A DNA stretch of 64,000 nt from Halalkalicoccus tibetensis. Its GTDB lineage: Archaea; Halobacteriota; Halobacteria; Halobacteriales; Halalkalicoccaceae. The notes under the pieces were generated by a model that worked only from the letters and a program-made list of their open reading frames with translations, was not told the DNA's origin and made no database searches. Where the stretch lies: the NCBI RefSeq assembly GCF_037996645.1, contig NZ_JBBMXV010000007.1, forward strand, positions 32,973 through 96,972. The letters run 5' to 3'. Both the position numbers and the translations under genes were made by a program. Shown here one piece after another: positions 1,052 through 50,769 of this stretch (within the stretch, counting starts at the first letter, position 1; every line of letters begins with the position of its first letter).

Positions 1052-4000
1052 ATGAGAGACATCAATGTCGATCCCATGACGGGACACTCGCACAGCAAGA
1101 AAGAACAACACGACGGACTAATTGACCGACGAGATTACCTGCGATATACAGGTGCGCTTGCGGGCTCCTCGATAGCTGCCGGAGCTGGTATAGAGACGGC
1201 TGCGGCTAACAGAGATGAGGAAACTGATGAGGGATCGATAACCCCGACAAACCTACGGGTCGAGTACGCTCGAGAGCCGAATAACGTGCTTCCAACAGTC
1301 GATAACTCCGATAGCACGCTTGAGGTGCCGCGGTTCTCTTGGGAAGTAGCCGGCCCGCGAGGTACCGTCCAGTCGGCGTACCGAATCTTGGTGGCAGAGA
1401 GCAGAGACACAGTTGAGAACGGCGATAGCGACGTTTGGGACAGCGGTGTTATAGATTCATCACAATCAATTCACGTTCCTTACGATGGCGAAGCGCTCGA
1501 GGCGGACACAACGTATTACTGGACCGTCCGGCTTTGGGACGGCGATGAGGCGAGCGATTGGTGTGATTCGACACAATTCGTGACGGCCCTGCCAGCAGGC
1601 GACGAATACTGGGAGGGCGAGTGGATCGGTCCCGATTATGGCGAGTGGGGACCGAACGATCGCATCGACTACGATTTCCTAGAAGAAGATGAGTACGACC
1701 ATCGCCCCGAACCGCTGCTTCGCACTGGGTTTGACCTCAATGAGGATGTTGAGGAGGCCCGATTGCACGTTAGCGGTATCGGCTGTCATAAGCTCTACTG
1801 CAATGGCGAGCGTATCGGCAATCGCGTGCTCGAGCCCGCTCAAACTCAGTACGATGAGACTGTGCTCTACTCGACGTACGATGTCACGACATATCTGAAT
1901 GGTGGCATGAACGCGATCGGAATCGCACTTGGCCGGCTCCGGTTCGGTGAAATGGTCGCAGATAATGACTGGGGTTGGGCGCTGACAGCTCCGTGGTGGA
2001 GTGACCCACAAGCGATCGTTCAGCTGAACATCAAATTCGCCGACGGAACGAGTACGTCACTTGTCAGTGGCGACGATTGGCTGTTAACCGACGGCCCAAC
2101 TCGGTTCGACTCGCTGTTCTCGGGCGAAGTGTACGATGCTCGAGAAGAGAAACCAAGATGGACGGAGCCGGAGTACGACGATAGTGACTGGAACGTTCCA
2201 ACGATTGTCGACGATCCAGGTGGTGACCGAATCCCCCAACACATCCAACCAATGCGAGTACGGGACACCCTTGACCCCGTTGAAATTACTGAGCCGGAAG
2301 ATGGCGTTTACGTCGTCGATTTCGGACAGGTCATGACCGGTTGGGCTGAATTGACTGTCGAAGGCGATGAGGGAATCGGAGTCACGATGACTTACGGCGA
2401 AAAGCTCCACGACGACGGAACGGTGGATAATGATAATTCGCTCATTCACGCCCCCATGCAGCGGAATCACTACATCCTCAGAGGGGAGGGGACTGAACGA
2501 TGGGAGCCGAGCTATAGCTACAACGGTTTTCGGTATGTACAACTCGAGGGGTATCCCGGCGAGCCGAGCTCTGGGTCCCTTGCGGCGAAATATGTCTATA
2601 CTGCATTCGACGAAAGCGTTGAAAGCAGCTTCGAGTCCTCGAACGACCTGTTAAATCAGATTCACGAAAACACGTTATGGGCCTATCGAAACAATATGCA
2701 GGGTCTGCCGACGGATACCCCGAAACTGGAAAAAAACGGGTGGACGGGTGACGCCCAGCTGACCGCGGAAACGGGGATCTATAACTACGATATGGCCCGG
2801 TTCTGGACGAAGTGGATTCGGGACTTTGCTGACGCCCAACGCGAGGACGGCGAGACCTCGACGATTGTCCCGACACCGGGGTATAGCTTCCTCGATGAAC
2901 CCGATCTAAGCCCCGACTGGGCACTGGGTCCCACGCCGGGTTGGGACGCTGCGTTCATCCTCATCCCCTGGTGGGTCTACCAGTACTACGGTGATAAGCG
3001 GATTCTCGAAACGCACTACGAGAGCTGGAAACAGTATATCGACTGGATCCAATTGTGGTCCGAAGGAGATATCGTTGACGACCTCCCTGAACGAATCTCG
3101 GATCAGGAGGACGTTATTCGGACCTTCGATGACAGCCACGTACTCCCGGTTGGACTCGGCGACTGGGGTGGTGCACCACTGACTGATACAGATGACGGAT
3201 ACGGCGGCGGGGGAGACGAGGTACCGATTACCTCGACGGCCTACTACTATCGCTTCACGCAGGTGCTCGCCGAAACCGCCTCGCTCATTGGCGAAGACGA
3301 GGAGGCCGCCGAATGGGAGGAACTTGCTAAGGAGATCCGTGAGGATTTCAACGACGAATTCCTCGACACAAACCTAGGTTACTACCGGACCGGTCAGCAC
3401 GAGGCATACCTTCAGACGTCGAACCTTCTCCCGCTTGCCTTCGAGATGGTTCCTGATGAATACGAGAATATTGTCGTAGAGAGCCTTGTCGAAGATGTCA
3501 TGGAAACTCACGACGGCCACCTCAATACTGCAACGCTCGGGACGAAGTATCTGCTCCCGGTTCTCACCGAGTATGGCTACCATGACGTCGCCTACACTGT
3601 CGCCACGCAGACCGACTATCCGAGCTGGGGACTATGGATTGAAAACGATCGGACATCGCTGCTTGAGTTCTGGGAACTGGACTCGCGGTCGTGGAACCAC
3701 CACTTTCTGGGCGTCACCGACGAGTGGTTCTACAAGCATCTCGCAGGTATTCAAGTCGACGAGCCTGGCTTCAAGCACGTCCGGATCGCCCCCAAGCCAG
3801 TCGACGATCTTGAGTGGACCAGTGCAACGACCGAAACTATTAGAGGAGTCGTTGAGTCGAGCTGGGAACTTACCGAGACATCGGGCGCTGGCCGTGACAG
3901 GCAAGGAATTGAACTCGAAGTGACGATTCCCGGAAACGCGACAGCTACGGTTGAAATACCGACGTTCGGTGGTGAACAGGTCCGCGTCCGTGAGAGCGGA

Positions 4001-4138
4001 ACGAACATCTGGAACAACGGCAATCGGACGAACCGAGATCATCCAGGGATCAAGGCAATTGATCGAACCGACGAGGCCGTTATTGCCGAGGTGACGTCAG
4101 GCAAGTACGTGTTCGCACTCGAGCAGATCGGAAACTGA
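1052..4138 (+). CDS. Exported alpha-L-rhamnosidase (GH78)
   Basis: A 1028-residue glycoside hydrolase that should release terminal L-rhamnose from rhamnosides outside the cell. A Tat signal is visible at about residues 25-50 (RRDYLRYTGALAG, then a hydrophobic stretch). Domain order follows GH78: N-terminal beta-sandwich (about 65-190), rhamnosidase N domain (about 205-380), carbohydrate-binding-like domain (about 385-490), (alpha/alpha)6 barrel (about 500-890) and C-terminal beta domain. The catalytic-acid segment reads LPTDTPKLEKNGWTGDAQ and the second conserved glutamate lies in LLEFWELD. Met9 is an alternative start. It is convergent with the reductoisomerase-like gene and is the only GH78 of the two with an export signal. 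Confidence 0.9.
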   Translation: MRDINVDPMTGHSHSKKEQHDGLIDRRDYLRYTGALAGSSIAAGAGIETAAANRDEETDEGSITPTNLRVEYAREPNNVLPTVDNSDSTLEVPRFSWEVAGPRGTVQSAYRILVAESRDTVENGDSDVWDSGVIDSSQSIHVPYDGEALEADTTYYWTVRLWDGDEASDWCDSTQFVTALPAGDEYWEGEWIGPDYGEWGPNDRIDYDFLEEDEYDHRPEPLLRTGFDLNEDVEEARLHVSGIGCHKLYCNGERIGNRVLEPAQTQYDETVLYSTYDVTTYLNGGMNAIGIALGRLRFGEMVADNDWGWALTAPWWSDPQAIVQLNIKFADGTSTSLVSGDDWLLTDGPTRFDSLFSGEVYDAREEKPRWTEPEYDDSDWNVPTIVDDPGGDRIPQHIQPMRVRDTLDPVEITEPEDGVYVVDFGQVMTGWAELTVEGDEGIGVTMTYGEKLHDDGTVDNDNSLIHAPMQRNHYILRGEGTERWEPSYSYNGFRYVQLEGYPGEPSSGSLAAKYVYTAFDESVESSFESSNDLLNQIHENTLWAYRNNMQGLPTDTPKLEKNGWTGDAQLTAETGIYNYDMARFWTKWIRDFADAQREDGETSTIVPTPGYSFLDEPDLSPDWALGPTPGWDAAFILIPWWVYQYYGDKRILETHYESWKQYIDWIQLWSEGDIVDDLPERISDQEDVIRTFDDSHVLPVGLGDWGGAPLTDTDDGYGGGGDEVPITSTAYYYRFTQVLAETASLIGEDEEAAEWEELAKEIREDFNDEFLDTNLGYYRTGQHEAYLQTSNLLPLAFEMVPDEYENIVVESLVEDVMETHDGHLNTATLGTKYLLPVLTEYGYHDVAYTVATQTDYPSWGLWIENDRTSLLEFWELDSRSWNHHFLGVTDEWFYKHLAGIQVDEPGFKHVRIAPKPVDDLEWTSATTETIRGVVESSWELTETSGAGRDRQGIELEVTIPGNATATVEIPTFGGEQVRVRESGTNIWNNGNRTNRDHPGIKAIDRTDEAVIAEVTSGKYVFALEQIGN

Positions 4139-4221: not shown

Positions 4222-5238
4222 TCATTCATCACCTAGTCCAAGCTTTTCAATAGTCTCCTGTTCCTTCTGGATCATTTCAGTATCACCGAATTCTTTGTAT
4301 AATCGGTTGAGCATTGGGTAACCTGCCTGTTGCTCATTAGTCCACTCACGAGCGAATGACCCCGTTTCGATCTCGCGTAGTCGCTCTCGCATGTAGGACT
4401 TCATCTCTTCGCGATTATATGCCTCTGCTCGAGACATCTGCCCATATTGGCTAGTTTGAGAATGAAGCGGAAGCTGACCGATGAAGCCATCAGTTCCCAT
4501 TACTTCAAAGATATGTGCCATCTCTTGGGATAGATACTGCTCTAGCAGGATAACCTCACCAGGAATTCCTGCCTCACGTTCGATTTCGTATTTTGCTGCA
4601 ATTGCATTGAAGAAAAGCGGTATCAGTGCTTGTTCGGTTAGAAGATCAATTTTCGTTTCCATCTCAAAAGTACCTTCAATCACACCGGATCGGGTCGAGC
4701 CGATAGCTTTTGATAGTGCAAGTGCTGTTTCCTGTGCGTTTCCAGAGTAGTCCTGATTAACAGCGATCATGCTTGGGGCACCGTCACCCTCTTCATAGAG
4801 TTCGCGGACTAGGTCTCCGATCATCCGCGGTGCGACCATGATAGTATCAAGGTCAGCAGTAGGCTCGATAAAATCGTAAGTGATGTTGTATCCTGATGCA
4901 AAATTAACTGTGTTACCGGCTTCGAGTCCAGGTTCGATTTCTTCTTGATAGATTCCTGGGGCAACTTCATCAGGAATCAGCAGAAAGATGATATCAGCAC
5001 GTTCAGCGGCTTCTGCTATGTCGTAGTCCTCAAAGCCATCCTCTCTAGCTTGTTTCCTTGAGTCGTCGCTTCGGTTTCCGACAATGATGTCTTCAACACC
5101 GGAGTCCTGCATGTTCAGCGCCTGCGCACGGCCTTGATTCCCGTACCCAATGATGGCTATTGTCTTTTCATTGAGGATAGACATATCAGCATCATCCTCA
5201 TAGAATATCGTTGCCTCTTCTGTGGTACTATCTTGCAT
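4222..5238 (-). CDS. Ketol-acid reductoisomerase-like oxidoreductase
   Basis: A 338-residue protein with an N-terminal Rossmann fold (GYGNQG at 31-36) and the all-alpha reductoisomerase C-domain. It resembles IlvC, but the segment that reads AHGFNI in IlvC is ASGYNI here (Ser115 for the catalytic His), APKGPGHTVR is APRMIGDLVR, and one of the metal-binding glutamates appears to be Ser237; Asp198, Glu202 and Glu233 remain. It is the last gene of the minus-strand sugar operon, 54 bp after GntP, with no branched-chain amino acid genes nearby. I infer an NAD(P)-dependent reductase, dehydrogenase or isomerase of a sugar-acid intermediate rather than valine synthesis. Its reaction is unknown. Confidence 0.75.
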   Translation of the reverse strand: MQDSTTEEATIFYEDDADMSILNEKTIAIIGYGNQGRAQALNMQDSGVEDIIVGNRSDDSRKQAREDGFEDYDIAEAAERADIIFLLIPDEVAPGIYQEEIEPGLEAGNTVNFASGYNITYDFIEPTADLDTIMVAPRMIGDLVRELYEEGDGAPSMIAVNQDYSGNAQETALALSKAIGSTRSGVIEGTFEMETKIDLLTEQALIPLFFNAIAAKYEIEREAGIPGEVILLEQYLSQEMAHIFEVMGTDGFIGQLPLHSQTSQYGQMSRAEAYNREEMKSYMRERLREIETGSFAREWTNEQQAGYPMLNRLYKEFGDTEMIQKEQETIEKLGLGDE

Positions 5239-5291: not shown

Positions 5292-6617
5292 TTATAATAT
5301 GAGTGCTATGACAATCGAGAAGAAGAATGCGAATATTGAGACAATTGCACCACCAAGAGTGTACGTTTTCAAGCCACCAGTCACCTCCAGACCAGCCAAT
5401 TCAGTCACAACCCAGAAACCACTATCATTAATATGACCAATACTCATACCACCTGCGAGTGCCGAAAGAGCTAGGGCTACAGGTGCAACAGTCGTTTCAA
5501 CACCAGCTATGATAGTCATCGCCGTGATCCCTGCAACTGTCCCTGAACCTTGTGCGACGCGCATGACCAGACCAAGCACATAGGCGATTACAACGATCAT
5601 TATTCCATCACCACTTGCACCAACAAGACTGAGCATTGCGTCAGCAGCCTCTGTCTCCTGAATAACAAATCCAAATGCGCCCCCAGCGCCCGTTATTGCC
5701 AAGACGATCCCTGCAGGGCGCAAGGCTTCCGAGAATTCATCTGAAAGATTCTCATGCCCCATCGTAATCACATATATGATGATAGCGACAATCAGTCCTG
5801 CAAGAAGTGCAATGATTTGACTACTGAGAAATTCGAAAAAGACGTTTAGCTCGCCTAAGAGAGCCTCAGAAGTAGTCCCGATCATAATAAAGATGATAGG
5901 CACAGCGATTGGAAGAAGAGAAACAAGAAACGAAGGGGGATTCTCCACTGTTTCTTCCTCTTCATCTACAAACGGTATTTCACTAATATCATCACCAGTC
6001 CAAATATGATCAATAACAGCAACAAAAACACCAATTGATAATGTAATCGATAGTATTCCACCAATCAAACCAACAATCATCATTGTTCCAAGTTCGAAAT
6101 CAAGTAAAGCGGGTGCAGCAAGTGGATTGGGGGTCGGGGGGATAAACGTGTGTGCACCGGCCGCCCCAATCGCGAGTGGTCCGATCACTAGCGGGTATGA
6201 GAGTTCAGTTTCTCGCCAGAGAGCAATGACCATTGGAATCATCACGAGAAATGCAACGTCGAAAAAGACAGGAATTGCGATAATAGCACCTGAAATGCCG
6301 ATTGCGTATGGAATATATTTTGTTGGAACCGCATCTGTCATTCCCAATGCAATTGTTCTAGCACCACCACATCGAGCGAGTAGCATCCCGATCATAATCC
6401 CAAAAATGATTGGCAAGCCAATTGACGCCATTAAGTCACCGAATCCCTCACCGATTGCATCAACTGTCTCTGTTAAACCAAGCCCCGATGCGATACCCAT
6501 ATAGAGTGAACCACTTACTAATGACACCGCTGGATCAATGTCAAGCACTATGATCAATCCAAGAACAATGCCAATTGCGATTACGAGGTTTATAGCTAGT
6601 ATGGTTGTTCCTACCAT
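5292..6617 (-). CDS. GntP family sugar-acid permease
   Basis: A 441-residue membrane protein with about 12-14 hydrophobic segments; the start MVGTTILAINLVIAIG is chosen because the upstream in-frame codons are charged and unlike the family. Features such as GPLAIGAAGAHTFIPPTPNPLAAP and VAQGSGTVAGITAMTIIAG match GntP/gluconate:H+ symporters, which import aldonic acids. Its place between an ABC permease and the reductoisomerase-like gene suggests uptake of rhamnonate or a related acid. The gene is markedly AT-rich compared with genes past 23 kb. Confidence 0.85.
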   Translation of the reverse strand: MVGTTILAINLVIAIGIVLGLIIVLDIDPAVSLVSGSLYMGIASGLGLTETVDAIGEGFGDLMASIGLPIIFGIMIGMLLARCGGARTIALGMTDAVPTKYIPYAIGISGAIIAIPVFFDVAFLVMIPMVIALWRETELSYPLVIGPLAIGAAGAHTFIPPTPNPLAAPALLDFELGTMMIVGLIGGILSITLSIGVFVAVIDHIWTGDDISEIPFVDEEEETVENPPSFLVSLLPIAVPIIFIMIGTTSEALLGELNVFFEFLSSQIIALLAGLIVAIIIYVITMGHENLSDEFSEALRPAGIVLAITGAGGAFGFVIQETEAADAMLSLVGASGDGIMIVVIAYVLGLVMRVAQGSGTVAGITAMTIIAGVETTVAPVALALSALAGGMSIGHINDSGFWVVTELAGLEVTGGLKTYTLGGAIVSIFAFFFSIVIALIL

Positions 6618-6718
6618 ATACCCTTCTCGTAAACAAGAGTAATAATAATTTGTATTTATCACTAATCTTTTTATATCTTGGTGAGGTATATATTGCTGCC
6701 TCACACTGACTCAGGAGC

Positions 6719-7735
6719 CTAACTCGGAGTGAGGAGATCGTCTCGAATATTTTGCCGGTATCTGTTGATGATGATCGCGGCGATTACGAGAACGCCAAAG
6801 AAGATATTCACTTGATTACCGCCTAGTCCAGTTTGTATAAGACCAGCATCAAACACGCCGATAAGCAGTGCACCACCAATCATATTAACAATTGACCCCC
6901 GGCCACCTGTTAAACTGGCACCTCCAATAACAGCACCGGCAAATGCCATGAAGACGGCACCATCGGCCATTCCTGGGGTTGCCGAGCCAAGAAATCCTGT
7001 AAATAGGAGTCCCGAGAAAGCACTCAAGACACCAGAGATCACAAATACCCAAAATACAGTATTAGTGACGCTAATTCCGACTCGGTTTGATGCTTCTGAA
7101 TCGCCACCGACTGAGTAGACGTTACTACCAAATTGGGTCTGCCTCATGAGAATATGAATCAGGACAGCAGCAATGACCAGGACGAAGATCGCGATCGGGA
7201 TTCCAGCGATTGTATCACCACCAATAGCGAGATAAGTTGCTGGGAATCCTTCACTAATCGGATTGAGGCTAAGTTCGAGTGTTGCATACTGGAGGATGAA
7301 GAAGGTGCCAAGAGTGACAAGAAATGGATTGAGATCCAGAAAGGCAATAAAGAAACCGTTGAACGCACCGATCAATGCTCCAATGAAGAGGATCGTAATA
7401 ACGCCTAACCACCAAGGCATCCACGGTGCCCAGGAAGTGAGGAGGAGTGCATTTAACATTCCTGCAAACCCTGCCGCCTGACCAACAGAAAGATCGAAAT
7501 TGCCGCTCAAGAGGCAGATCCCTTCAGCCATAACCAGAAAGCTGAGCATAACACTTGAGAATACGATGAACTGGAGATTAGAATAGTTGAAGAACTGTGG
7601 TCCATTGATGATTCCAAAAGCAAGAACTGTCGCAACTAATAGTACCCATATAAAATTGTCAACTAAAAATAGTTTTGTTTGGGTTGATTTTTCACCTGAC
7701 AGCGCTTCCTTTGCGTTGGCTAAGTCTAACTCCAT
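6719..7735 (-). CDS. Sugar ABC transporter permease (RbsC-like)
   Basis: A 338-residue protein with 8-10 predicted membrane segments and the BPD_transp_2 family signature; the segments GLLFTGFLGSATPGMADGAVF and AFAGAVIGGASLTGGRGSI are typical of ribose/rhamnose-type permeases. It forms the channel of an ABC importer together with the ATPase at 9069-9863 and the binding lipoprotein at 7843-8967. All three are on the minus strand with gaps of about 100 bp, so they are probably cotranscribed. The single permease gene fits a homodimeric channel. Confidence 0.9.
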   Translation of the reverse strand: MELDLANAKEALSGEKSTQTKLFLVDNFIWVLLVATVLAFGIINGPQFFNYSNLQFIVFSSVMLSFLVMAEGICLLSGNFDLSVGQAAGFAGMLNALLLTSWAPWMPWWLGVITILFIGALIGAFNGFFIAFLDLNPFLVTLGTFFILQYATLELSLNPISEGFPATYLAIGGDTIAGIPIAIFVLVIAAVLIHILMRQTQFGSNVYSVGGDSEASNRVGISVTNTVFWVFVISGVLSAFSGLLFTGFLGSATPGMADGAVFMAFAGAVIGGASLTGGRGSIVNMIGGALLIGVFDAGLIQTGLGGNQVNIFFGVLVIAAIIINRYRQNIRDDLLTPS

Positions 7736-7842: not shown

Positions 7843-8967
7843 TCAATCGTCTTGGCCGAAGATAACACCCCAGTTTGAGGATTCATCGTAATTATCGGGT
7901 GTCAGGAGTCGACCGCTCGTCTGGAACCATGGATGATCGTGTTGCTCCTGGACAGTTGCCGGTGCCCAATCCTGTCCTTCCCAGATATCTACACCCATAT
8001 GTTCCTCGCCTGTTATCTCTAAGTCATCAGTATCAATTTCGTCACCAACATCAGGCAACGCATCTTCTCCTTCTGTCCGGGCTACTTCTAGATAATGCAT
8101 TGCAATCGGTAGATAATACTGCGTAGGCTGGGTGAAGGCCCGCTGCAACCATTCGCTATCGAATAGGTCGACTACAGTTGGGCTACCATCCATACATGCC
8201 ATGAACACTTCTCCAGGTTCCATGCCATACGTATCAAGTGCACCTGCAGCTCCGGCTGCCATCTCTCCATTTGCTGCAAAGATCGCATCGACCTCACCAT
8301 CAACCGACTGTAAAACGGAATAGAGACCCTCTTGAGCCGGTTCTCGGTTGAAATCAGCACTTATCTCAAGGATTTCGATTTCATCATGTTCATCGACGGC
8401 ATTTCTGAATCCTTGTTCCCTTTCGGTTCCAATGGCCATCCCAAGGTCTCCCTGCAAGTTCACAACAGTTCCTTCAGCTTCTCCATCCGATTCGAGATAG
8501 GTGACGATCTCTTCCCCAAGTTCCTCACAAGCAGGCTCGTTTCCGATATAGACACTCATAGTGAGGTCAGGTGTATCGATATCAGAGTTAGCTGCGATGA
8601 CTGGAATATCCTGACTAACGGCCTGCTCAACTTGATTTGCAGGAGCGGTTTCAGAGACCGGACCAACTAAGATACCGTCAGCGTCCTGTTGGGCGAAGTT
8701 TTGAATATGAGAGATCTGTTCTTCTTCTTCGCCCCGTGAATTGTTATTCTCAAAGTCAAACCCATGGTCTTCGGCATAGTATTCTCCACCTTGTACGTAC
8801 GCCTCCTCCCACGATCCGTACATCCCCCAAATCGTGTGAGGATAAAAAGGACCACCATTGTCTTCATCGTCTCCGCCGAGACAACCTGCGATACTGGCGA
8901 TTCCTGCTACCCCCGCTGTTTTGAGGATATTTCTCCTATTCATAGGAGTGTTGCTACCATCTGCCAT
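7843..8967 (-). CDS. Sugar ABC substrate-binding lipoprotein
   Basis: A 374-residue periplasmic-binding-protein family 1 member. The N-terminus has a Tat motif (Arg11-Arg12, NRRNILKTAG) and a lipobox ending in Cys29 (SIAGC), so it is likely exported folded and lipid-anchored. The mature part shows the two-lobe fold seen in ribose- and rhamnose-binding proteins, with segments such as DGILVGPVSETAP and DAIFAANGEMAAGA. Specificity cannot be read from sequence; neighbours suggest L-rhamnose, a rhamnoside or a lactone. Confidence 0.9.
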   Translation of the reverse strand: MADGSNTPMNRRNILKTAGVAGIASIAGCLGGDDEDNGGPFYPHTIWGMYGSWEEAYVQGGEYYAEDHGFDFENNNSRGEEEEQISHIQNFAQQDADGILVGPVSETAPANQVEQAVSQDIPVIAANSDIDTPDLTMSVYIGNEPACEELGEEIVTYLESDGEAEGTVVNLQGDLGMAIGTEREQGFRNAVDEHDEIEILEISADFNREPAQEGLYSVLQSVDGEVDAIFAANGEMAAGAAGALDTYGMEPGEVFMACMDGSPTVVDLFDSEWLQRAFTQPTQYYLPIAMHYLEVARTEGEDALPDVGDEIDTDDLEITGEEHMGVDIWEGQDWAPATVQEQHDHPWFQTSGRLLTPDNYDESSNWGVIFGQDD

Positions 8968-9068: not shown

Positions 9069-9863
9069 CTACGGCGTTGCCGTGGTTTCAGTATCTCGTT
9101 CTGGTACCCCAGCCTGCATCTCTTCCAGTTCATCGGTGTTCGTCTCCTCCTTCAGGAGATCTCCGACTTTGTCTCCTCGGGAAAACACTACGAACCGATC
9201 ACAGATACGATAGGCATGAGGAAGATTGTGAGTGATAAATATCACTGACGTTCCGGACTCCTTGAGCTGCTCGACGAAATCGAGAACCTTCCGTACACCC
9301 GATATGGCTAACGCCGTCGTCGGTTCGTCCAAAATAACGAGATCAGCATCAAAGTACATCGCTCTTGCAATCGCGACTCCTTGTTTTTCACCACCAGAAC
9401 AGAATCGCACTTCTTGATCTGGTGACGAAATGTCTAGCCCGAGTTCACGGGTTATCTTTTCGGCCTCTGTTCGCATAGTCTCCTTATCTAAGACTTTAAT
9501 CGGCCCGACACCGGTCGTCAACTCTCTCCCGAGGAAGAGATTCTGTGCCACACTCCGATCTTCAACTACAGCTTGATCTTGAAATACGGTTTCGATATTC
9601 AGTTTTCGGGCTTCATTGACGGATGAGATGTCGACGCGCTCTCCCTTCCAGAAGACATCACCAGATGTCTGTGAGTGGACACCAGTGATAATCTCAACTA
9701 ATGTTGATTTTCCAGCACCATTATCTCCAACGAGACCAACGATCTCACCAGGATAGACACTGAAATCAACGTTCTTGAGTGCATGAACGGACCCATACCA
9801 TTTATTTATATTCTCCATGCGTAGAAGAGGCTCTGTCTGCTCGCGGTCTATTGTTGGTGCCAT
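9069..9863 (-). CDS. Sugar ABC transporter ATP-binding protein
   Basis: A 264-residue single-cassette ATPase. Walker A is GDNGAGKST (46-54), the signature is CSGGEKQG, and Walker B is ADLVILDEPT followed by an H-loop ITHN. Bacterial RbsA-type ATPases usually carry two fused cassettes, while this one has a single cassette like FrcA, so it should act as a homodimer with the adjacent permease. It lies between the amidohydrolase and binding-protein genes in the minus-strand operon. Confidence 0.9.
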   Translation of the reverse strand: MAPTIDREQTEPLLRMENINKWYGSVHALKNVDFSVYPGEIVGLVGDNGAGKSTLVEIITGVHSQTSGDVFWKGERVDISSVNEARKLNIETVFQDQAVVEDRSVAQNLFLGRELTTGVGPIKVLDKETMRTEAEKITRELGLDISSPDQEVRFCSGGEKQGVAIARAMYFDADLVILDEPTTALAISGVRKVLDFVEQLKESGTSVIFITHNLPHAYRICDRFVVFSRGDKVGDLLKEETNTDELEEMQAGVPERDTETTATP

Positions 9864-9954: not shown

Positions 9955-10830
9955 TCACCGAAGCAACCCGAGATGGTGGTAAGCTGCTTCGTCGGTTATC
10001 CAGGAAATGTCGCTTTCAGATAGGGAATCTACCTTTCGAAGCCAGTTACGAGCTTCAGCGTAGCTAGCGACGTCACTGACATTCGGATAATCTGAGCCCC
10101 AAATAACACGTTCCCGTCCGAAAACATCAATCAACCATCGAACGTGGCTATGCATATCTTGGTACGGGAATCCTTCATTCGACATATGAGGTACCTCGGA
10201 AATCTTGACCGCTACAGAATCGAATTCGGCGAGATCAGTAAGCCGGCTAAAGGTTCCAGTATCTAGGGGTGTATCTGGGTCAGCATGGCAGAAATGGTCG
10301 AACAGATAGGTCAACTCGGGATATGTCTCAACTAGTTCTATGGCTTGATCGAGTTGCTTGTGATCACAGAGGATCTGAACTATCGCATTATTCTCGACAG
10401 CGGCTTCCCAAAACTCCGTCTCCTTAATCGCATCTCGAAGCCATGTTACACTCGGGTCAAATGTTTCCCACATCTGCTCGTATGGACAGGCCACGCCAAG
10501 TCGAAATCCGAGGACTCCATCGACAGCCATGCACGTTTGAAGTTGCTCAGAAGCATCCTCAGCAAACGGATCGAGCATAACGATCCCATACAATCGGTCA
10601 TGGTCTTTTACTATTTGGAGGGTATACTCGTTGTCGGTCCATTCGCAAATGGGATACCCGACAACGACAGCTTCATCGATACCGTTACGATCCATATCCG
10701 CCAGCAGTCTATCAGCCGTATACACCGTATGGACGTCAAAAGCATCGACAAGGTCGAGGATCGGGCCATTGACCCAGGGATGCTCAACTGTTGCAGGTCC
10801 CCATGCATGCGTGTGTGAGTCTAGTACCAT
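9955..10830 (-). CDS. Amidohydrolase_2 family hydrolase, likely sugar lactonase
   Basis: A 291-residue TIM-barrel metal hydrolase (COG3618/amidohydrolase 2). Metal-binding signatures are HTH at residues 6-8, FDHFCHAD in the middle and WGSDYPNVS near the end. Family members include fucono- and rhamnono-1,4-lactonases, which open aldonolactones to acids. Position ahead of the sugar importer and behind the cytoplasmic rhamnosidase supports a lactonase role. The family also holds decarboxylases and hydratases, so the substrate is inference. Confidence 0.75.
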   Translation of the reverse strand: MVLDSHTHAWGPATVEHPWVNGPILDLVDAFDVHTVYTADRLLADMDRNGIDEAVVVGYPICEWTDNEYTLQIVKDHDRLYGIVMLDPFAEDASEQLQTCMAVDGVLGFRLGVACPYEQMWETFDPSVTWLRDAIKETEFWEAAVENNAIVQILCDHKQLDQAIELVETYPELTYLFDHFCHADPDTPLDTGTFSRLTDLAEFDSVAVKISEVPHMSNEGFPYQDMHSHVRWLIDVFGRERVIWGSDYPNVSDVASYAEARNWLRKVDSLSESDISWITDEAAYHHLGLLR

Positions 10831-10880: not shown

Positions 10881-13800
10881 CTACTCGACTGAGAACACAA
10901 AGCGCCCTGAACCGACCTCAGCTACGAGATCATCCCCGTCTGATTCCACCGCTTCGATACCAGCAATGGTGTCCTCAGATAGTTGTACATCCGATTCAGC
11001 GACCGTAGCATTAGCCGCGTTCGGAAGCCGAACCGTCGCATGCGAATTCCATGGAACAGTCACAGTTAGTTCGTAGTGACCGCTGTTGTCCTGCTCCCAA
11101 GCAACAGCGAGTTCGCCGTTCCAAGTTTCTACACTAGCAGACGCCCACTCTAGATCATCAACGAGGGATGGCGCAATCGTTACGTGGTCAGTGATCGGCC
11201 GATCATCTAGTTGGATTCCGCCGAGTATTTCATAGAAGAATTCCGAAACGTGCGTATAGGGCGAATGGTTCAATGAGTTCATTCCGGAACCAACACTCTC
11301 ATCGGAATTCCAACGCTCCCACATTGTCGTCGCACCGTTGTGGACCATGTACACCCATCCAGGCTGTTCAGGCTGGCTAACGACCTTGTAGGCTAGGTCA
11401 GCATAACCGTGATCAGCAAGCGTATGAATCAGTGGACGCGTCCCAAGGAAACCTGTTTGAAGCTTCTCGCCATCAGCTCGGACCTTCTCTGCAAGATTCC
11501 CGGCAACTATGTCAACAGACTCCTCTGGCACCATTCCAAAGAACAGCGGAACCGCATAAGAAGACTGAGTGCCTGGACCATACATCCCCTTTGCAGAATC
11601 GAAATAGCGGTCGTTGAATGCATCGTTCACGTACTCTGCACGCTCTCGGTATGCCTTCGCGTCGGTAGTGTTGCCGAGAACATCTGCTATCTTCGCAAAA
11701 GTATCTATAACCTGGTATAGGAACGCTGTATTATACAAATCATGAGGCAGGCCGCGTCGTCCATCAGCGTTTTCGAAAGTCAGCCAGTCTCCAAACTTCC
11801 CGTAGCTATCGGGAAGAATCCCATCTTCCGTGTTGTTGTACCAGTAATCGACGTACTTACGCATACCTTCGTACTGCTCACGGAGGATTCCTTTGTCACC
11901 ATCATGCAAATAGAGGTACCACGGTATCATAACACGGGTAATTGACCAGGTAGGGTCAGCGGGATCCTCAAATGCTTTATTCGGGATGACGTCGGGAACG
12001 TATCCCATCTCCGAGGCAACATCATCGTGATCACGGGCCCATTTTTCATCGAAGCGAACGGCATCGTAGTTGAAGAGGAGCGCCCGCGTAGAGATATGGG
12101 CATCACCGGTCCAGCCGAATCGTTCATCACGCTGAGGGCAATCTTCAGGGATCGAATGGGTGTTGCTTCGAAGTCCCCAAACGGAGTTATGCTGGAGTTG
12201 GTTGAGATCCCCGTTTGCACACTCAAAAGTCCCGCGTCGGTCCATCGCAGTATGTACAACCTTTGCGGTCACTTTCTCTGTATCAAACTCGCCGGGATAT
12301 GCGGTGACCTGTGCATAACGAAAACCATGGTAGGTAAATCGCGGTTCGTACGTCTCTGTTTCCTCACCGCGAGCGAAATACGTATCCGTTGCATCAGCCG
12401 TTCGAAGGTCCGTTATCGAAAGGTCTCCGTCTTCAGTAAGCGCCTCAGCGTGGCGTACTGTAACCTTTTCACCGGGATCAGGGTCGTCGATATCTATTTC
12501 AAGCCAGCCAGTAAGGTTTTGCCCGAAATCAAGAATTGGGCCATCGGGATGGTCGTGGACTTTTTCAACATCAAAGGTATCGACGACTCTCATCGGCTCG
12601 ATTCGCTCAGGTCGTAGTGTGCCACCGGGTGCGTCAACGACGGTTGTACTATCCCAAGACGAGTTATCTGCAGAAGCAGCGCTCCAATTGTCTATCTTCT
12701 GTCGGGCGTCGAAGGTCTCACCGTCGTAGATATCATTTTCCAATAGGGGGCTGTCTGTGGATTCCCAGTTGCTATTGGTTACAACACGCTGTATCGTCCC
12801 ATCATTGAATTCAATTGTAAGTACAGCTCGTGCCCGCGGTGATCCATCGCTCACCCAGTAAGAGCTGCTCTTAGCAAACCAGCCGCGACCGAGCCAGAGG
12901 CCCACAGTGTTGGGACCATCCTGAAGTTGGTCAGTTAGATCATGAGTTGTATAGAAGACACGCTGTTCATAATCCGTCCAAGCGGGATCAAGCTGTCGAT
13001 CACCGACTCGGTCCCCATTGACATACAATTCACCATACCCAACAGCAGCAACGTGTATCCGTGCGGACTGAATTGGCTTATCGAGGTCGAATTGAGTTCG
13101 CAGTAGGGGAGAACTCGACCCAAGTTGGGACTCAGTACATCCGTTTACTAACTGATTGTGGCTCCACGTGTTAGTCTCACAGGAAGAAGATGCCTCAACG
13201 GAACAATCAGCTGCGAGGTCTGTTCCATTCACATCGCTTACAGTGAGGGAAGCAAGTGCGAAACACTGCCATGCACTGACTTGTTCTACACGTCGATCCG
13301 CGCTACGAATGTGTGATTCATCTTGCGTGGAAGGTCTAACTTCAAAGAGATCTGTCGCCGTAACCCGAATATAGCGACCACTTGCACTGATATCATCATG
13401 GGTGTGAACTGGAACTGGTGCACTAGTTGGCACACCATCGTGGTCATCTTTTTTCTCACTCTCGGACTCAACGCGAGCAACAATCGTGCTATTACTGAAC
13501 TCAGGATCGTTAGCTATCTCCACTCGATAGGCATCAGGAAAGCCAAACCCTTTGAGAGGATTTTCTGACCAAGAAATTGTAACGGCAGTATCGTCTGGCG
13601 TCCGAACAATGTCGACTGGCTCTGCACCATGGAGACTGACACTGGATATATCATAGGAGTCTCCGAGATCTATTTGTACCCATTCTTCAGAGTTTGCGTC
13701 TGGATCACACCATTGACTTCGCCATCCGTTCGTGTCACCTTCTTCCGGTTGATAAGAAATCCAGTCACCGCTCCATCGCTCTGGCCTAAGTGCTGTAGTG

Positions 13801-14150
13801 AAATTTGCTGGTTCAGCCCATTCCGTCTCTCCGTAATTGGTCCAAATCTTTACCGACCAGTAATAGGTGGTATCTGTAGCAAGATTTGTACCATTATATT
13901 CGATATTGGTTGCCTGATTTGACTCAACACGGCCTGAGTCCCAAACCTCCCCCTGCCCTCGAGAGACGTCGTTATAACTGCGACCGATAATGAGACGGTA
14001 GGAGGTCTGAATGGCACCACGCTGGCTGGTCGTGATTCGCCAAGAGAACCGTGGTGAGGAGTCGGGATCGATGTTCCCAGGTGTATTTTCGTATTCCGTG
14101 CGGAGATCTATTGGTTGACTAGAAATCTCCTCCTTGGGGGGTGTAGTCAT
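10881..14150 (-). CDS. Cytoplasmic alpha-L-rhamnosidase (GH78)
   Basis: A 1089-residue GH78 enzyme; start MTTPPKEE is chosen over a Met eight codons upstream because it begins just before the conserved N-terminal domain. There is no signal peptide. After the first beta-sandwich (about 12-105) there is an insertion of roughly 200 residues (about 125-335) resembling a discoidin/F5-8C module (WVQIDLGDSYDISSVSLHG, later GRYIRVTATDL). The usual rhamnosidase N, middle, barrel and C-terminal domains follow. The acid segment DCPQRDERFGWTGDAH is canonical, and the second glutamate is in TTMWERWN. It probably hydrolyses imported rhamnosides. Two copies of a candidate operator lie upstream. Confidence 0.9.
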   Translation of the reverse strand: MTTPPKEEISSQPIDLRTEYENTPGNIDPDSSPRFSWRITTSQRGAIQTSYRLIIGRSYNDVSRGQGEVWDSGRVESNQATNIEYNGTNLATDTTYYWSVKIWTNYGETEWAEPANFTTALRPERWSGDWISYQPEEGDTNGWRSQWCDPDANSEEWVQIDLGDSYDISSVSLHGAEPVDIVRTPDDTAVTISWSENPLKGFGFPDAYRVEIANDPEFSNSTIVARVESESEKKDDHDGVPTSAPVPVHTHDDISASGRYIRVTATDLFEVRPSTQDESHIRSADRRVEQVSAWQCFALASLTVSDVNGTDLAADCSVEASSSCETNTWSHNQLVNGCTESQLGSSSPLLRTQFDLDKPIQSARIHVAAVGYGELYVNGDRVGDRQLDPAWTDYEQRVFYTTHDLTDQLQDGPNTVGLWLGRGWFAKSSSYWVSDGSPRARAVLTIEFNDGTIQRVVTNSNWESTDSPLLENDIYDGETFDARQKIDNWSAASADNSSWDSTTVVDAPGGTLRPERIEPMRVVDTFDVEKVHDHPDGPILDFGQNLTGWLEIDIDDPDPGEKVTVRHAEALTEDGDLSITDLRTADATDTYFARGEETETYEPRFTYHGFRYAQVTAYPGEFDTEKVTAKVVHTAMDRRGTFECANGDLNQLQHNSVWGLRSNTHSIPEDCPQRDERFGWTGDAHISTRALLFNYDAVRFDEKWARDHDDVASEMGYVPDVIPNKAFEDPADPTWSITRVMIPWYLYLHDGDKGILREQYEGMRKYVDYWYNNTEDGILPDSYGKFGDWLTFENADGRRGLPHDLYNTAFLYQVIDTFAKIADVLGNTTDAKAYRERAEYVNDAFNDRYFDSAKGMYGPGTQSSYAVPLFFGMVPEESVDIVAGNLAEKVRADGEKLQTGFLGTRPLIHTLADHGYADLAYKVVSQPEQPGWVYMVHNGATTMWERWNSDESVGSGMNSLNHSPYTHVSEFFYEILGGIQLDDRPITDHVTIAPSLVDDLEWASASVETWNGELAVAWEQDNSGHYELTVTVPWNSHATVRLPNAANATVAESDVQLSEDTIAGIEAVESDGDDLVAEVGSGRFVFSVE

Positions 14151-14206
14151 GGATGTGAGATGGAGAGGCCACACGTTGTAAACCTTTGGACCAACAGTAT
14201 TGGTTG

Positions 14207-14687: not shown

Positions 14688-15584
14688 TTAATCCATTAAC
14701 ATACCTTGGGCGTGATCAACAGCGTCGTGAATTTCTGATTTCTCTTCACTACTGAGAGGAACTAAAGGAGTCTTGACATCGTCTGTTGGGATTACATCTT
14801 GATGAACTAACGCCGTTTTCATCGCAGGTGCGATACCATATTCGAGACAGAGTTCAAGAAGAGGTGCTACCGCTTCTTGTTGTAAGTACATGCCTCGTTC
14901 AGTATGGGCACACTCGACTATTTCCGAAAACACCTCAGGAATTACGTTTGCTAATGCATGTATGCCCCCATTTGAACCAGTTCGAAGTGACGGTACTAAC
15001 AGTGAATCGAATCCCTGAAACAGCAAGAATTCATCTGGGGTGAGTTTGTCTACTCTGAGAAAGTATAAAAAGTCACCACTTGTGTCTTTCATCCCTTGAA
15101 TCGAATCATGTTCTGCAAGTGTCTTGACGGTCTGGGCACTGATGCCGGTTCCAACGTGCATAGGGATATTGTACAAAAACAGAGGGAGCGATGTCTGATC
15201 AGCAATTATTTCGAAGAACTGCAGTGTCCCCTCCGCTTGATTTGCCGAATGAAAGTAGGGAGCGACAACTGCTGCTGCATCAGCACCAGCTCTATTTGCG
15301 TCTTCAACTCGGGACAGTGTCTCCTCGGTGCTTGTACCGGCTGCCGCCGCAATCACAGGTGCATCACCAGCATGTTGTGAGACAGTTTGGATTACCTGCT
15401 GACGCTGATCAGGCGTAAGACTCGCGAATTCACCTGTAGAGCCGCAAGGATACATTCCATCGACACCTCCATCAAGAATGAACTCTGTTGTCCTTGCAAG
15501 CGCCTCCTGATCGATTTCGCCATCGTTGAGTGGACTTACTACAGGGCACAGTACACTTTCGCTAGCCGCGTCAAGTAGTGGCAT
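14688..15584 (-). CDS. DHDPS/KDG-aldolase family lyase
   Basis: A 298-residue class I aldolase of the DapA/NAL superfamily. It has GSTGE at 48-52, the catalytic Tyr138 (LFLYNIP) and the Schiff-base Lys166 (GMKDTSGD). Family members cleave 2-keto-3-deoxy sugar acids to pyruvate and an aldehyde, or make dihydrodipicolinate. Divergent pairing with the rhamnonate dehydratase-like gene (145 bp between starts) points to cleavage of 2-keto-3-deoxy-L-rhamnonate to pyruvate and lactaldehyde. It differs from the diketo-hydrolase route described for rhamnose in Haloferax volcanii. Confidence 0.85.
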   Translation of the reverse strand: MPLLDAASESVLCPVVSPLNDGEIDQEALARTTEFILDGGVDGMYPCGSTGEFASLTPDQRQQVIQTVSQHAGDAPVIAAAAGTSTEETLSRVEDANRAGADAAAVVAPYFHSANQAEGTLQFFEIIADQTSLPLFLYNIPMHVGTGISAQTVKTLAEHDSIQGMKDTSGDFLYFLRVDKLTPDEFLLFQGFDSLLVPSLRTGSNGGIHALANVIPEVFSEIVECAHTERGMYLQQEAVAPLLELCLEYGIAPAMKTALVHQDVIPTDDVKTPLVPLSSEEKSEIHDAVDHAQGMLMD

Positions 15585-15729: not shown

Positions 15730-16932
15730 ATGGAGATTACAGGCGTTACAACAACTAAGGTCAGCAATGAATCGTGGGGCGAATTCGTTGAATTCCCCTT
15801 GCTCACAATCATGAATAAGTACGACGAATACCGCAACGTAGACGGGAGCAATCCAGAGGCTCGTCGGAAATGGATGGGGCCCGTGGGCGATGTCGTCGTT
15901 GAGATCGAAACAGACACAGATATTACAGGAGTTGGTATCGCTAACTGGGCGACTGGTGCAATTGCTACGGTTATTGATGAAACACTTTCGAAGCTTGTTA
16001 TCGGTGAGGATCCACTTCAGCGCGAGAAACTCTGGGAGCTCATGTACCGGGCGACGCTTCCCTTCGGGCGCAAGGGGATAGCCATTGATGCGATTAGCGC
16101 AGTCGATACCGCGCTATGGGACATCGCCGGAAAAGAAGCTAACAAACCCGTCTACGAACTTCTGGGTGGACCAGTCAAAGATGAAATCCCATGTTATGCG
16201 AGTAATCTCCACCCAGTTGACTTCGACACACTCGAGCAAGAGGCGCTCGAATACGTCGAAAAAGGGTTCGACACAATGAAAATGCGATTCCGGCATGGAC
16301 CGGAAGCTGGCCGCGCTGGGATGAAAGAAAACGAGAAAATTGTTGCAACAGTCCGCGATGCAGTTGGTGATGATATTGATATCGCTGCTGACGCCTACAT
16401 GGGTTGGACAGTACGTTATGCGAAGAAGATGACGAAGCGTCTAGAACGGTATGAAATGGCGTGGATCGAGGAGCCAGTAATGGCCGACAATATCGAAGGA
16501 TATGCAGAAGTGCGCGAAGCTGCTCCGATGCCGATCTCCGGCGGTGAGCATGAGTTCACTCGGTGGGGCCACAAGGATCTATTGGAGAAGGAAGCAGTCG
16601 ATATTCTTCAACCCGACGTCGGTCGGGTCGGTGGCATTAGTGAAATGAAGAAAATCGCAGACATGGCAGAAACCTACGATATCCCAGTTATTCCGCACGC
16701 AGGAACGAATCCAACGCTGCATCTCATTGCCGCCTCAACGAATGCACCGATGGCAGAATACTTCCCCATTCCTGAGTGGTACAAAGAACAACAAGATGGC
16801 GACTCAACGTACGCTGACGCTATCTTCGAGAATCCTCCGTCACCAGACGACGGCATGATTCCACTACCGGATTCACCAGGTGTCGGCGCTGAACTAAATC
16901 GGGAGGCACTCGAGCATTTCGCTCTTGAGTAA
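15730..16932 (+). CDS. L-rhamnonate dehydratase-like enolase-superfamily enzyme
   Basis: A 400-residue mandelate racemase-type enzyme. Metal ligands are visible as Asp221 (ADAYMGW), Glu247 (WIEEPV) and Glu273 (GGEHEF), with the catalytic His323 in IPHAGTNP. Segments TLPFGRKGIAIDAISAVDTALWD and PGVGAELNRE resemble bacterial RhmD. It should dehydrate L-rhamnonate, or a related aldonate, to the 2-keto-3-deoxy acid. The flavin/F420 oxidoreductase gene starts two bases after its stop, so the two are almost certainly translated from one mRNA. Confidence 0.85.
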   Translation: MEITGVTTTKVSNESWGEFVEFPLLTIMNKYDEYRNVDGSNPEARRKWMGPVGDVVVEIETDTDITGVGIANWATGAIATVIDETLSKLVIGEDPLQREKLWELMYRATLPFGRKGIAIDAISAVDTALWDIAGKEANKPVYELLGGPVKDEIPCYASNLHPVDFDTLEQEALEYVEKGFDTMKMRFRHGPEAGRAGMKENEKIVATVRDAVGDDIDIAADAYMGWTVRYAKKMTKRLERYEMAWIEEPVMADNIEGYAEVREAAPMPISGGEHEFTRWGHKDLLEKEAVDILQPDVGRVGGISEMKKIADMAETYDIPVIPHAGTNPTLHLIAASTNAPMAEYFPIPEWYKEQQDGDSTYADAIFENPPSPDDGMIPLPDSPGVGAELNREALEHFALE

Positions 16933-16934
16933 TA

Positions 16935-17960
16935 ATGAGTGAAGACATCTCACTCGAGTATAACATCCCCGTATTTGCAGGCGCCCCCGAAAACGGAAAT
17001 GAACCTGTCCACCGAGATACACCTCAATACGAATCGTTAGATTGGGACACAACAAAAGAAGGCATTCTTAGAGCCGAAGAACTAGGTTTCGATGCTGTCT
17101 GGGCACCAGATCACTTAATGCTCGGCCGAAACCACGCTGAATACGAGTGTTGGACACTTCTTAGCGCAATTGCGGGGTTCACTGATAATGTAAACATTGG
17201 CTCTCTTGTTCTGAGCAATGACTATCGGAACCCAGCTCTCGTGGCTAAAATGGCTGCGACGCTAGACGTCATCTCAGATGGAAGGCTCGAGCTTGGACTC
17301 GGTGCTGGTTGGCACGAACCTGAGTACGACGCATACGGATGGGAGTATCGTGATGGGTTTGAGCGGTTGATGCGACTCGATGAATCGATTCGGCTTATGA
17401 AAACGATGTGGACCGAAAATGAATCCTCATTTGAGGGTGACCGATACAAGATAGATGGGGCATACTGTGAACCAGGCCCTGTCCAAGACCCACATCCACC
17501 AATTCTTGTTGGCGGAACTGGAGAAGAAGTGACGCTCAAACTTGTTGCCAAACATGCGGACGTATGGAATACGGATGTCTTCAACGGTGATACGGAGACG
17601 CTAAAACAGAAGATCAGTGTGATTGAGGAGCACTGTGAAACTGTCGGGCGTGATCCTGATGAAATTGAGTACTCCTGGGATGGCCACGTAATCTGCACTC
17701 GTGACCAAAAAGAGCTCGATGAGTTGCTTGATCTTATGCTTCCGATACAATTTGAAGACGAATATGTAGATCAGTCTGATATCGAATCTGAGGCAGACGC
17801 CCGTGATTACTTTATTATAGGGACACCGGAGGAATGTATCGAAGCTATCGAACGGCGTATTGATATCGGTGTCACAAAGTTCCAATTCTGGTTTGTTGAT
17901 TTTCCATCCACGAGTGGAATTGAATTGTTTGCTGAGGAGGTTATGCCGACTTTTCAGTAA
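16935..17960 (+). CDS. Luciferase-like flavin/F420-dependent oxidoreductase
   Basis: A 341-residue LLM-class TIM-barrel protein with DHLMLGRN near residue 60 and the family hallmark ISDGRLELGLGAGWHEPEYDAYG. The class uses FMN or coenzyme F420; haloarchaea make F420. It is tightly coupled to the dehydratase gene. F420-dependent sugar dehydrogenases belong to this class, so oxidation of the sugar or of a deoxy-acid intermediate is plausible, but FMN monooxygenase activity is equally possible. Cofactor and substrate are not shown by the sequence. Confidence 0.8.
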   Translation: MSEDISLEYNIPVFAGAPENGNEPVHRDTPQYESLDWDTTKEGILRAEELGFDAVWAPDHLMLGRNHAEYECWTLLSAIAGFTDNVNIGSLVLSNDYRNPALVAKMAATLDVISDGRLELGLGAGWHEPEYDAYGWEYRDGFERLMRLDESIRLMKTMWTENESSFEGDRYKIDGAYCEPGPVQDPHPPILVGGTGEEVTLKLVAKHADVWNTDVFNGDTETLKQKISVIEEHCETVGRDPDEIEYSWDGHVICTRDQKELDELLDLMLPIQFEDEYVDQSDIESEADARDYFIIGTPEECIEAIERRIDIGVTKFQFWFVDFPSTSGIELFAEEVMPTFQ

Positions 17961-48921: not shown

Positions 48922-50769
48922 ATGGACGAAAAACTCGAACTCTTCCGAAGCGAATTCATGCGGATGATAGCTGGAGCCACAGTAGTAGGTAGTACAGGGA
49001 TCGCTGCATCGAGTACACAGGCAGCTGCAGAGGACTCATCCGATCCGGACGATCTGGATGTCGATCCGATCTATCCACTTGAAGAAGATACGAAGATCGA
49101 TCAAGTTGGGTATCTACCCAAGGAGCCCAAGATCGGTATGGTTACGATCGACGCAACCACGTTCCATGTTCGAGATGCGGTCAGCGACGAGAGCGTGTAC
49201 ACTGGCGAGTTATCGGACCCGATCTCGGACGCTAACTCGGGGGATACAGTCCGTCATGCGGATTTCTCATCGGTAACTATTCCTGGAGAGTATGTGTTAG
49301 ATGTCGAAGATACGACTCTTTCCTATGATTTCACCATTAGCGACGGTGTGTTCGATACCGCTCTAATGCAAGCAGGACGAGTCTACACTCTCATGCGGTC
49401 GGGAATGCACCTCGATGATCCGCTTACGGGCGCACAGTACGCAGCGGGACATGAAGATGATGCGGAAGCAGAGCTGTTCTTCTCGGATGACTACTACGAT
49501 GAGGGCGATTCGATCGATGTTAGCGGTGGGTGGTACGATGCAGGTGACTATGGGAAATATATCCCCCCTGCATCAGTTACTGTCGGACAGTTGTTGTTGA
49601 CCTACGAACAGTACTCCGAAAAGTTCGGTGCTGATCAGTTCTGTCTTCCCCATGAGACATCCGACTCCGACGAGGATCTGCCCGACCTCCTTCGAGAGGT
49701 GAAGTTCAATCTCGAGTGGATGGAACGGATGCAGCGGCCAGATGGAGGGATCTACCACAAGGTTGCGGGTGATGAATTCCCCGACCTTGACGTCACGCCG
49801 AGCGAAGACACACAGCAGCGCTATGTGTTCGGATTCTCGACGTTCGGCACAGGATTCTATGCGGGAGCGATGGCAATGGCTTCTCGAATCTATGAGGAAT
49901 ACGACGAAGCATTCGCTGAGCGACTCCTCTCGAACGCACAGGGCGCCTATCAGTATCTCCAAGACAATCCTGATCCAGAGTTCCGGTTCGACGAAGGTCA
50001 GGATAGTGGCTCAGGTCCTTATCGGAAGGATACCGACGACGAGGAACGTCTCTGGGCAGCGGCCGAGCTACTGAAGACGACGAACGATCCGGAGTACGAT
50101 GAGTATCTCACAAGCTCACTAACTGACCAACTCGAAGCACAGCCAACGACGATCACCTGGTCCGATGCACGGACGCTGGGGCTGTGGGCCTACTATACGA
50201 GCGATGAGAACACCACTGAGTTTGCAGAGACGATACAGCAGAACTTCCGTGAGTACGCTGATGACCTCGTTGAGCACATCAACGAGGACGGATATCGAGT
50301 TGCACTCGAAACTGACGAGTATGTGTGGTCTTCGACAAAAATAGCCGTCGCGAAGGGTATGAACCTCTTGCTAGCAAACGAAATAACAGCTGATCAAGCG
50401 TACGTGAACGGGGCATTAGACCAGCTTCACTATGCCTTTGGTCGCAACACCAACAGCACTAGTTACATGACCGGGGCAGGTAACACACCTGCAAGAAACG
50501 TTCATGATCGGATCATGGTTAGTACCGGCTATTACCTGCCAGGACACGTCGTCGGGGGACCAAATGCACAGACGGATAACCAGGATCCGATCCTGCAGCG
50601 CCGTCTTGCCGAGGAGTCGCCTGCTCCAGCAGAAGCTTACTACGATGATGTCCAGTCATATGCAACTAATGAATTCGCGATCGATTACACCGCTCCAGTG
50701 GTCTTCGTACTGGCGCACTTCGCCTCATCTGATCCCGAACTCGATGAGCTCGACTATCTCCGATCCTGA
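48922..50769 (+). CDS. GH9 endoglucanase with CelD-N domain
   Basis: A 615-residue cellulase-type enzyme that should cleave beta-1,4-glucans. The order is a signal-like N-terminus (about 1-35), an Ig-like CelD-N domain (about 55-140) and the (alpha/alpha)6 catalytic domain (about 150-610). Catalytic residues visible are Asp206 and Asp209 in GGWYDAGDYGKY, the H528-D529-R530 motif and Glu584 in YATNEFAIDYTAP. The N-terminus has RSEFMRMIAGA where Tat substrates have RRxFLR, so the second Arg appears to be Ser. The next gene is far off, so it is probably monocistronic. Confidence 0.9.
   Translation: MDEKLELFRSEFMRMIAGATVVGSTGIAASSTQAAAEDSSDPDDLDVDPIYPLEEDTKIDQVGYLPKEPKIGMVTIDATTFHVRDAVSDESVYTGELSDPISDANSGDTVRHADFSSVTIPGEYVLDVEDTTLSYDFTISDGVFDTALMQAGRVYTLMRSGMHLDDPLTGAQYAAGHEDDAEAELFFSDDYYDEGDSIDVSGGWYDAGDYGKYIPPASVTVGQLLLTYEQYSEKFGADQFCLPHETSDSDEDLPDLLREVKFNLEWMERMQRPDGGIYHKVAGDEFPDLDVTPSEDTQQRYVFGFSTFGTGFYAGAMAMASRIYEEYDEAFAERLLSNAQGAYQYLQDNPDPEFRFDEGQDSGSGPYRKDTDDEERLWAAAELLKTTNDPEYDEYLTSSLTDQLEAQPTTITWSDARTLGLWAYYTSDENTTEFAETIQQNFREYADDLVEHINEDGYRVALETDEYVWSSTKIAVAKGMNLLLANEITADQAYVNGALDQLHYAFGRNTNSTSYMTGAGNTPARNVHDRIMVSTGYYLPGHVVGGPNAQTDNQDPILQRRLAEESPAPAEAYYDDVQSYATNEFAIDYTAPVVFVLAHFASSDPELDELDYLRS

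Follow-up and report, generated by a model that had tools for sequence, protein, structure and literature searches.

The window, a stretch of 64,000 nucleotides from the haloarchaeon Halalkalicoccus tibetensis, contains an intact open reading frame of 338 codons at 4222-5238 on the minus strand, with many stop codons on the plus strand. Its product resembles ketol-acid reductoisomerase (KARI, IlvC), and the gene closes a row of seven closely spaced genes on one strand, which encode in order a rhamnosidase-like protein, a lactonase-like amidohydrolase, an ABC transporter ATPase, a probable binding protein, an ABC permease, a GntP permease and the KARI-like protein (Table 1). The original prediction had placed the gene in a sugar operon, and the rhamnosidase-like, lactonase-like, sugar ABC transporter and GntP genes, all on the minus strand, bear this out. 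The gene lies in a sugar operon and not with ilvB/ilvN, leu or gonydiol biosynthesis genes. Next to the dehydratase-like gene listed last among the neighbours, a luciferase-fold (PF00296) oxidoreductase is encoded at 16935-17960, which may serve the same pathway as a sugar dehydrogenase or a lactone-forming one. Further along the window, two look-alikes were recognized by eye, a secreted GH9-type glycosidase (48922-50769), which would be a further plant-polysaccharide gene, and an IS200/IS605-type TnpB with zinc-finger CxxC motifs (52637-53728).

Table 1. Genes around the KARI-like gene and the active-site segments within it, in window coordinates
Feature	Position	Strand	Basis
KARI-like protein, 338 aa	4222..5238	-	ORF and translation; KARI_N, KARI_C; AF2 pLDDT 94.9
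Codons 55-58 (N55..D58), cofactor-loop positions, loop shortened	5065..5076	-	D58 clade-invariant
Codons 113-118 FASGYN, Ser115 at canonical His position	4885..4902	-	alignment
Codons 136-141 APRMIG, Arg138 at canonical Lys position	4816..4833	-	alignment
Codons 233-239 EQYLSQE, ligands E233 and E239 flanking a two-residue insertion with invariant Ser237	4522..4542	-	alignment
Codons 259-266 HSQTSQYG, new invariant His259, E to Q264, substrate-binding Ser260 kept	4441..4464	-	alignment
GntP-family permease, adjoining the KARI-like gene, co-directional	5292..6704	-	TIGR00791 7e-67, below cut-off
Sugar ABC transporter permease, same operon	6719..7735	-	profile search
Probable ABC substrate-binding lipoprotein, same operon	7843..8967	-	position and signal-peptide-like start
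ABC transporter ATPase, same operon	9069..9863	-	ORF sequence with Walker A motif
Amidohydrolase-2, lactonase-like, same operon	9955..10830	-	PF04909; weak L-fuconolactonase match, below cut-off
Alpha-L-rhamnosidase-like protein, first operon gene	10881..14174	-	NF041573 1e-170, below cut-off
Second alpha-L-rhamnosidase-like protein, convergent with the KARI-like gene	1052..4138	+	profile search
DapA-family aldolase/dehydratase	14688..15584	-	PF00701
Rhamnonate/galactonate-dehydratase-like MR/enolase-superfamily protein	15730..16932	+	PRK15440 3e-77, below cut-off

In regard to the identity of the protein, both KARI domains were detected with Pfam (KARI_N at 6e-62 and KARI_C at 1e-25), and its length fits class I KARI (IlvC, EC 1.1.1.86; about 330 aa). 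The AlphaFold model, built from 36 clade sequences, reached a pLDDT of 94.9, and a PDB search with it returned KARIs as the top matches at a TM-score of about 0.9, led by the enzyme of Saccharolobus solfataricus (Sso-KARI), whose entry 6jcv, 'putative ketol-acid reductoisomerase 2', is also the nearest PDB sequence. The expectation that the Rossmann/KARI fold had been kept is thus confirmed. Among the curated ilvC profiles, TIGR00465 gave 274 bits against a cut-off of 226 and NF004017 gave 303 bits against a cut-off of 336; since the former cut-off is passed, automated pipelines would name the protein ilvC, just as had been anticipated.

In the KARI reaction, which uses two Mg2+ ions and NAD(P)H, an alkyl group of a 2-hydroxy-3-oxo acid migrates between C2 and C3, and C2 is reduced. 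Together with the Rossmann and knot domains, the window protein shares with class I KARIs the Asp/Glu set that binds the metals (PMC5940873) and the substrate-binding Ser, while it differs from them in the replacement of His by Ser and of Lys by Arg, a shortened cofactor loop with Asp, a two-residue insertion between metal-binding Glu residues, a new His259 and a non-ilv operon. These positions were compared among 100 members of the clade to which the protein belongs and 29 canonical KARIs, close relatives included, and the dereplicated rows (61 and 18, respectively) gave the same pattern. Every clade member (100/100) has D58, R138, M139, S237 and H259, and none of the 29 canonical KARIs has R138, S237 or H259: position 138 is always Lys there, position 237 is a gap and position 259 is Ile or Val. 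Asp at position 58 occurs in 4/29 canonical KARIs as well, and N55 is present in about half of the clade members. The window protein carries the full marker set of D58, R138-M139, the S237 insertion, H259 and T262. At position 115, the clade has Ser in 81 members, His in 17 and Thr in 2, against His in every one of the 29 canonical KARIs. The exchange of the catalytic His for Ser, correctly read from the sequence at the outset, is thus frequent in the clade but, with 17 members that keep His, not one of its defining marks. The substrate loop differs as well, as had been noticed, with APRMIG in place of the canonical APK-x-PG, whereas the change of Lys to Arg138, the cofactor loop N55..D58, His259 and the change of Glu to Gln264 had been overlooked. 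On the other hand, Ser237 does not take the place of an acidic ligand. Once the two-residue insertion is allowed for, the metal-binding acids D198, E202, E233 and E239 all align, being invariant in 100/100 clade members and 29/29 canonical KARIs, and the model shows a helix break at 237-238, the site of the insertion. The alignment and the helix break rule out that a ligand was lost: to read E233-S237 without a gap is a register error due to the insertion. An alignment with both His and Glu retained had been named as the result that would speak against an altered active site; the alignment made here shows Glu retained, with all four acids, and His replaced by Ser115.

In a tree of 79 dereplicated sequences (quick search, no bootstrap), canonical and KARI-like rows were split by one branch with SH-aLRT support of 100 and a length of 0.73. 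The KARI-like proteins are thus a separate, well-defined sister clade of canonical KARIs with a consistently altered active site, and Sso-KARI falls within it on a long branch of uncertain placement. The distribution of the clade is sparse and spans bacteria and archaea. Among haloarchaea, 16 of 391 genomes gave a match above threshold, one of which (L035) proved, from its motifs and its context, to be a canonical KARI. A wide scan of public genomes with the family alignment as the query recovered 533 stretches encoding relatives (the same contig scan with the single protein gave no matches), and the best 80 of these, all of them clade members on inspection, come from Firmicutes, Spirochaetes, Acidobacteria, Chloroflexi and several archaeal groups. 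A class-level scan around one Clostridia genome returned known members only and none that was new. In the family of the window organism, 3/10 genomes have a clade member, with 55% identity to the window copy, which was therefore probably acquired separately. One archaeal contig (genome G419, C7:36116-41368, L109) carries both types of gene, canonical KARI and KARI-like, in the same orientation and at a distance of about 4 kb.

The genome of H. tibetensis also has a second KARI, 42% identical to the window protein, on another contig (C4, locus L004). It lies downstream of the large and small subunits of acetolactate synthase and upstream of two aconitase-family genes and an isopropylmalate-dehydrogenase-like gene, in an ilvBN-C-leuCDB operon, and a clear canonical KARI is likewise present in 26/32 other genomes bearing a clade member. 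Together with the gene neighbourhoods and the Murdochiella genome described below, these observations support the view that the window protein is not the housekeeping ilvC copy and probably has a catabolic role; to that extent the proposal of a new catabolic activity stands, without the half of its active-site argument that was built on Ser237. Alternatively, the protein could be an IlvC isozyme, an additional working acetohydroxyacid isomeroreductase that serves valine and isoleucine synthesis under other conditions or with NADH and in which the altered residues are tolerated. The fold and domains, the four metal-binding acids, the substrate-binding Ser and the passed TIGR00465 cut-off all agree with such an isozyme, and so does Sso-KARI (PDB 6jcv, 6jcz and 6jd2), the only clade member with a solved structure and the closest one to the window protein (43% identity). 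It shares FASGYN, APRM, the E-5-E spacing with Ser, HSxTSQYG and every clade-defining residue, yet it was studied as an acetolactate enzyme and appears, in print and in its PDB deposits, as a KARI, one described as bispecific in cofactor use. Acetolactate activity, named at the outset as evidence against a new function, may therefore in part already exist for this distant member, and in vitro activity of that kind is conceivable for the window protein, because an enzyme with all of the clade residues is treated as a KARI. Nevertheless, we consider an isozyme unlikely in view of the separate canonical KARI here and in the 26/32 genomes, the position of the gene in a sugar operon away from ilvBN, and the exchange of Lys for Arg that is invariant across the clade. 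The strongest argument against an amino-acid role, strong but not final, comes from Murdochiella massiliensis, where the sole KARI match is a clade member, encoded between a MOFRL-type glycerate kinase (glycerate-2-kinase) and GntP. Model searches of this genome, whose record may be incomplete, gave no match for acetolactate synthase (AHAS) or dihydroxyacid dehydratase (DHAD), and the same models detected the enzymes in all 14 control genomes.

Further indications come from the gene neighbourhoods, which were counted within about 10 kb of the KARI-like gene in 60 dereplicated loci and checked by tblastn, because gene calls are noisy in GC-rich loci (antisense ORFs, e.g. L085:8948-9958). GntP was found in 9 loci, a LarA-type protein in 9, a DUF1537 kinase in 8 and PdxA in 7, against roughly 0.3-1 expected per partner in a rough Poisson estimate, which took loci of 20 kb and genomes of 3.5 Mb with one to three copies each. 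The neighbourhoods are nevertheless heterogeneous: even the commonest partner is missing from the majority of loci, and in many of them all of the tested partners are absent. A set of three neighbouring genes keeps reappearing in Clostridia and spirochaetes: the KARI-like gene, one for a GntP permease and one for a GntR regulator of the FadR type. In halophiles, the KARI-like gene is found near DUF1537 kinases, whose nearest curated name is D-threonate kinase (below cut-off), near PdxA, which passes the cut-off of the curated PdxA model, and near a LarA-type protein, which passes the curated model 'nickel pincer cofactor-dependent isomerase, group 22'. The association with DUF1537 kinase and PdxA is also present in Halanaerobium, where a TRAP transporter was recognized by eye as well, in Alicyclobacillus and in an actinobacterial MAG. 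In the congeners of H. tibetensis, DUF1537 kinase, PdxA, LarA, DapA, GntP and the KARI-like gene occur together in one cluster. In H. tibetensis itself the kinase and PdxA are not on the contig of the KARI-like gene; a series of GH97, DUF1537 kinase, PdxA, LarA, DapA, GntP and GHMP kinase genes, lacking the KARI-like gene, lies on another contig (L150, C1:200500-220400). Taken together, the neighbours point to 2,3-dihydroxy acids of the tetronate, glycerate or apionate type. The substrates suggested originally, 2-keto-3-deoxy acids and lactaldehyde, found no specific support. Two other settings were seen in MAGs. In those of Jordarchaeia/Sigynarchaeota (L098, L106, L093, L089), the KARI-like gene adjoins selenocysteine genes for an aSelB-type elongation factor and SepSecS, with a neighbouring kinase that resembles PSTK by eye. 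In those of Clostridiales (L066, L071, L075), a molybdopterin oxidoreductase gene directly follows it, with a ferredoxin-type gene nearby and, in L075, a radical activating-enzyme-like gene.

The KARI product has hydroxylated or desmethyl counterparts in tetronates, glycerate and apionate. The best reading, in our opinion, is that of an NAD(H)-dependent KARI-fold oxidoreductase or reductoisomerase of acid sugars, with the class of substrate suggested by the neighbouring genes, and we give a probability of roughly 0.55 to the KARI-like clade having left branched-chain amino acid synthesis for the catabolism of acid sugars, with the following mechanism. With two Mg2+ ions and NAD(H), the enzyme would run the KARI reaction, forwards or backwards, on a hydroxylated substrate, interconverting a short 2,3-dihydroxy acid (a tetronate, a branched pentonate or a glycerate type of compound) with the corresponding 2- or 3-oxo form. 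The product would then pass to DUF1537 kinase and PdxA, or to glycerate kinase, and finally yield triose phosphate. That the KARI fold can be adapted to a 2,3-dihydroxy acid without a branch is shown by BurG (PDB 7pcc etc.), an NAD+-dependent relative that oxidises such an acid, reduces hydroxypyruvate to glycerate, and excludes NADP through Asn48 and Asp51 (PMC9359912). BurG is only about 31% identical to the window model and makes a cyclopropanol in secondary metabolism; however, its Asn48/Asp51 have the same Asn-x-x-Asp spacing as N55 and D58 of the window protein, on which the predicted use of NAD(H) is based. The bacterial L-threonate route (LtnD, OtnI, OtnK, OtnC) places a dehydrogenase and then a 2-oxo/3-oxo isomerase before a DUF1537 kinase (PMC12540250). 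There, LtnD and OtnI are two separate enzymes, whereas one KARI-type enzyme could perform both steps, and the KARI-like loci usually have PdxA and not OtnC. Relatives of LarA are known to racemise glycerate and to epimerise deoxy-tetronates at C2 (PMC11770544), and those encoded beside the KARI-like gene would match the stereochemistry between the steps.

Two simpler or narrower activities should be weighed against this. The enzyme could be a hydroxypyruvate or tartronate-semialdehyde (glycerate) oxidoreductase that acts ahead of glycerate kinase with no alkyl migration. The reduction of hydroxypyruvate by BurG fits such an activity, as do the glycerate kinases of two unrelated families adjacent to the KARI-like gene in Murdochiella and in a Clostridia MAG. 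Since only two dereplicated loci have a glycerate kinase, and the haloarchaeal partners suggest C4 acids, this seems distinctly improbable. Improbable to an even slightly greater degree is a narrow form of our preferred reading, in which the enzyme is an oxidoisomerase of D-apionate, or a similar branched acid, converting apionate to 3-oxo-isoapionate by a reverse KARI reaction and serving apiose freed from plant glycans along with rhamnose. Apionate is dihydroxyisovalerate with both methyl groups hydroxylated, which makes it a chemical match to the reverse KARI reaction, and the known D-apionate oxidoisomerase, ApnO, catalyses a reaction of this type on an acid sugar, although it is not known to be a KARI-family protein. 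The rhamnosidase-like and lactonase-like genes of the operon would suit this substrate, and DUF1537 kinases act downstream of ApnO in known apiose routes. Against it, the PdxA partner fits a C3-hydroxy phosphate and not a beta-keto acid, and no apiosidase was identified among the genes examined. In one version of the apiose route, a RuBisCO-like step acts on 3-oxo-isoapionate-4-phosphate (PMC6302742); the H. tibetensis genome has no RuBisCO-like protein (no PF00016 match), so this version is ruled out there.

As for the clade as a whole, no functional description of it, as catabolic or otherwise, was found in the papers searched, with most subscription journals outside the search. It is possible, and we propose it only tentatively, that this widespread but patchy group of several hundred proteins, likely annotated as ilvC, consists of catabolic NAD-dependent oxido-isomerases of acid sugars in an undescribed route. 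If so, a single KARI-fold enzyme would do the work of two, a dehydrogenase and an isomerase. In halophiles its partners would be LarA-type epimerases, DUF1537 kinases and PdxA, and in bacteria they would be GntP or glycerate kinase. A few invariant residues are enough to separate the KARI-like clade from canonical KARIs, and if other members also pass as ilvC, metabolic models may wrongly credit their hosts with valine and isoleucine synthesis, Murdochiella being a likely case. Should the acid-sugar role prove true, a core anabolic fold would have been reused in catabolism, a sparse gene family of gut Firmicutes, spirochaetes and archaea would gain a function, and its members would probably be natural NAD-dependent KARI scaffolds.
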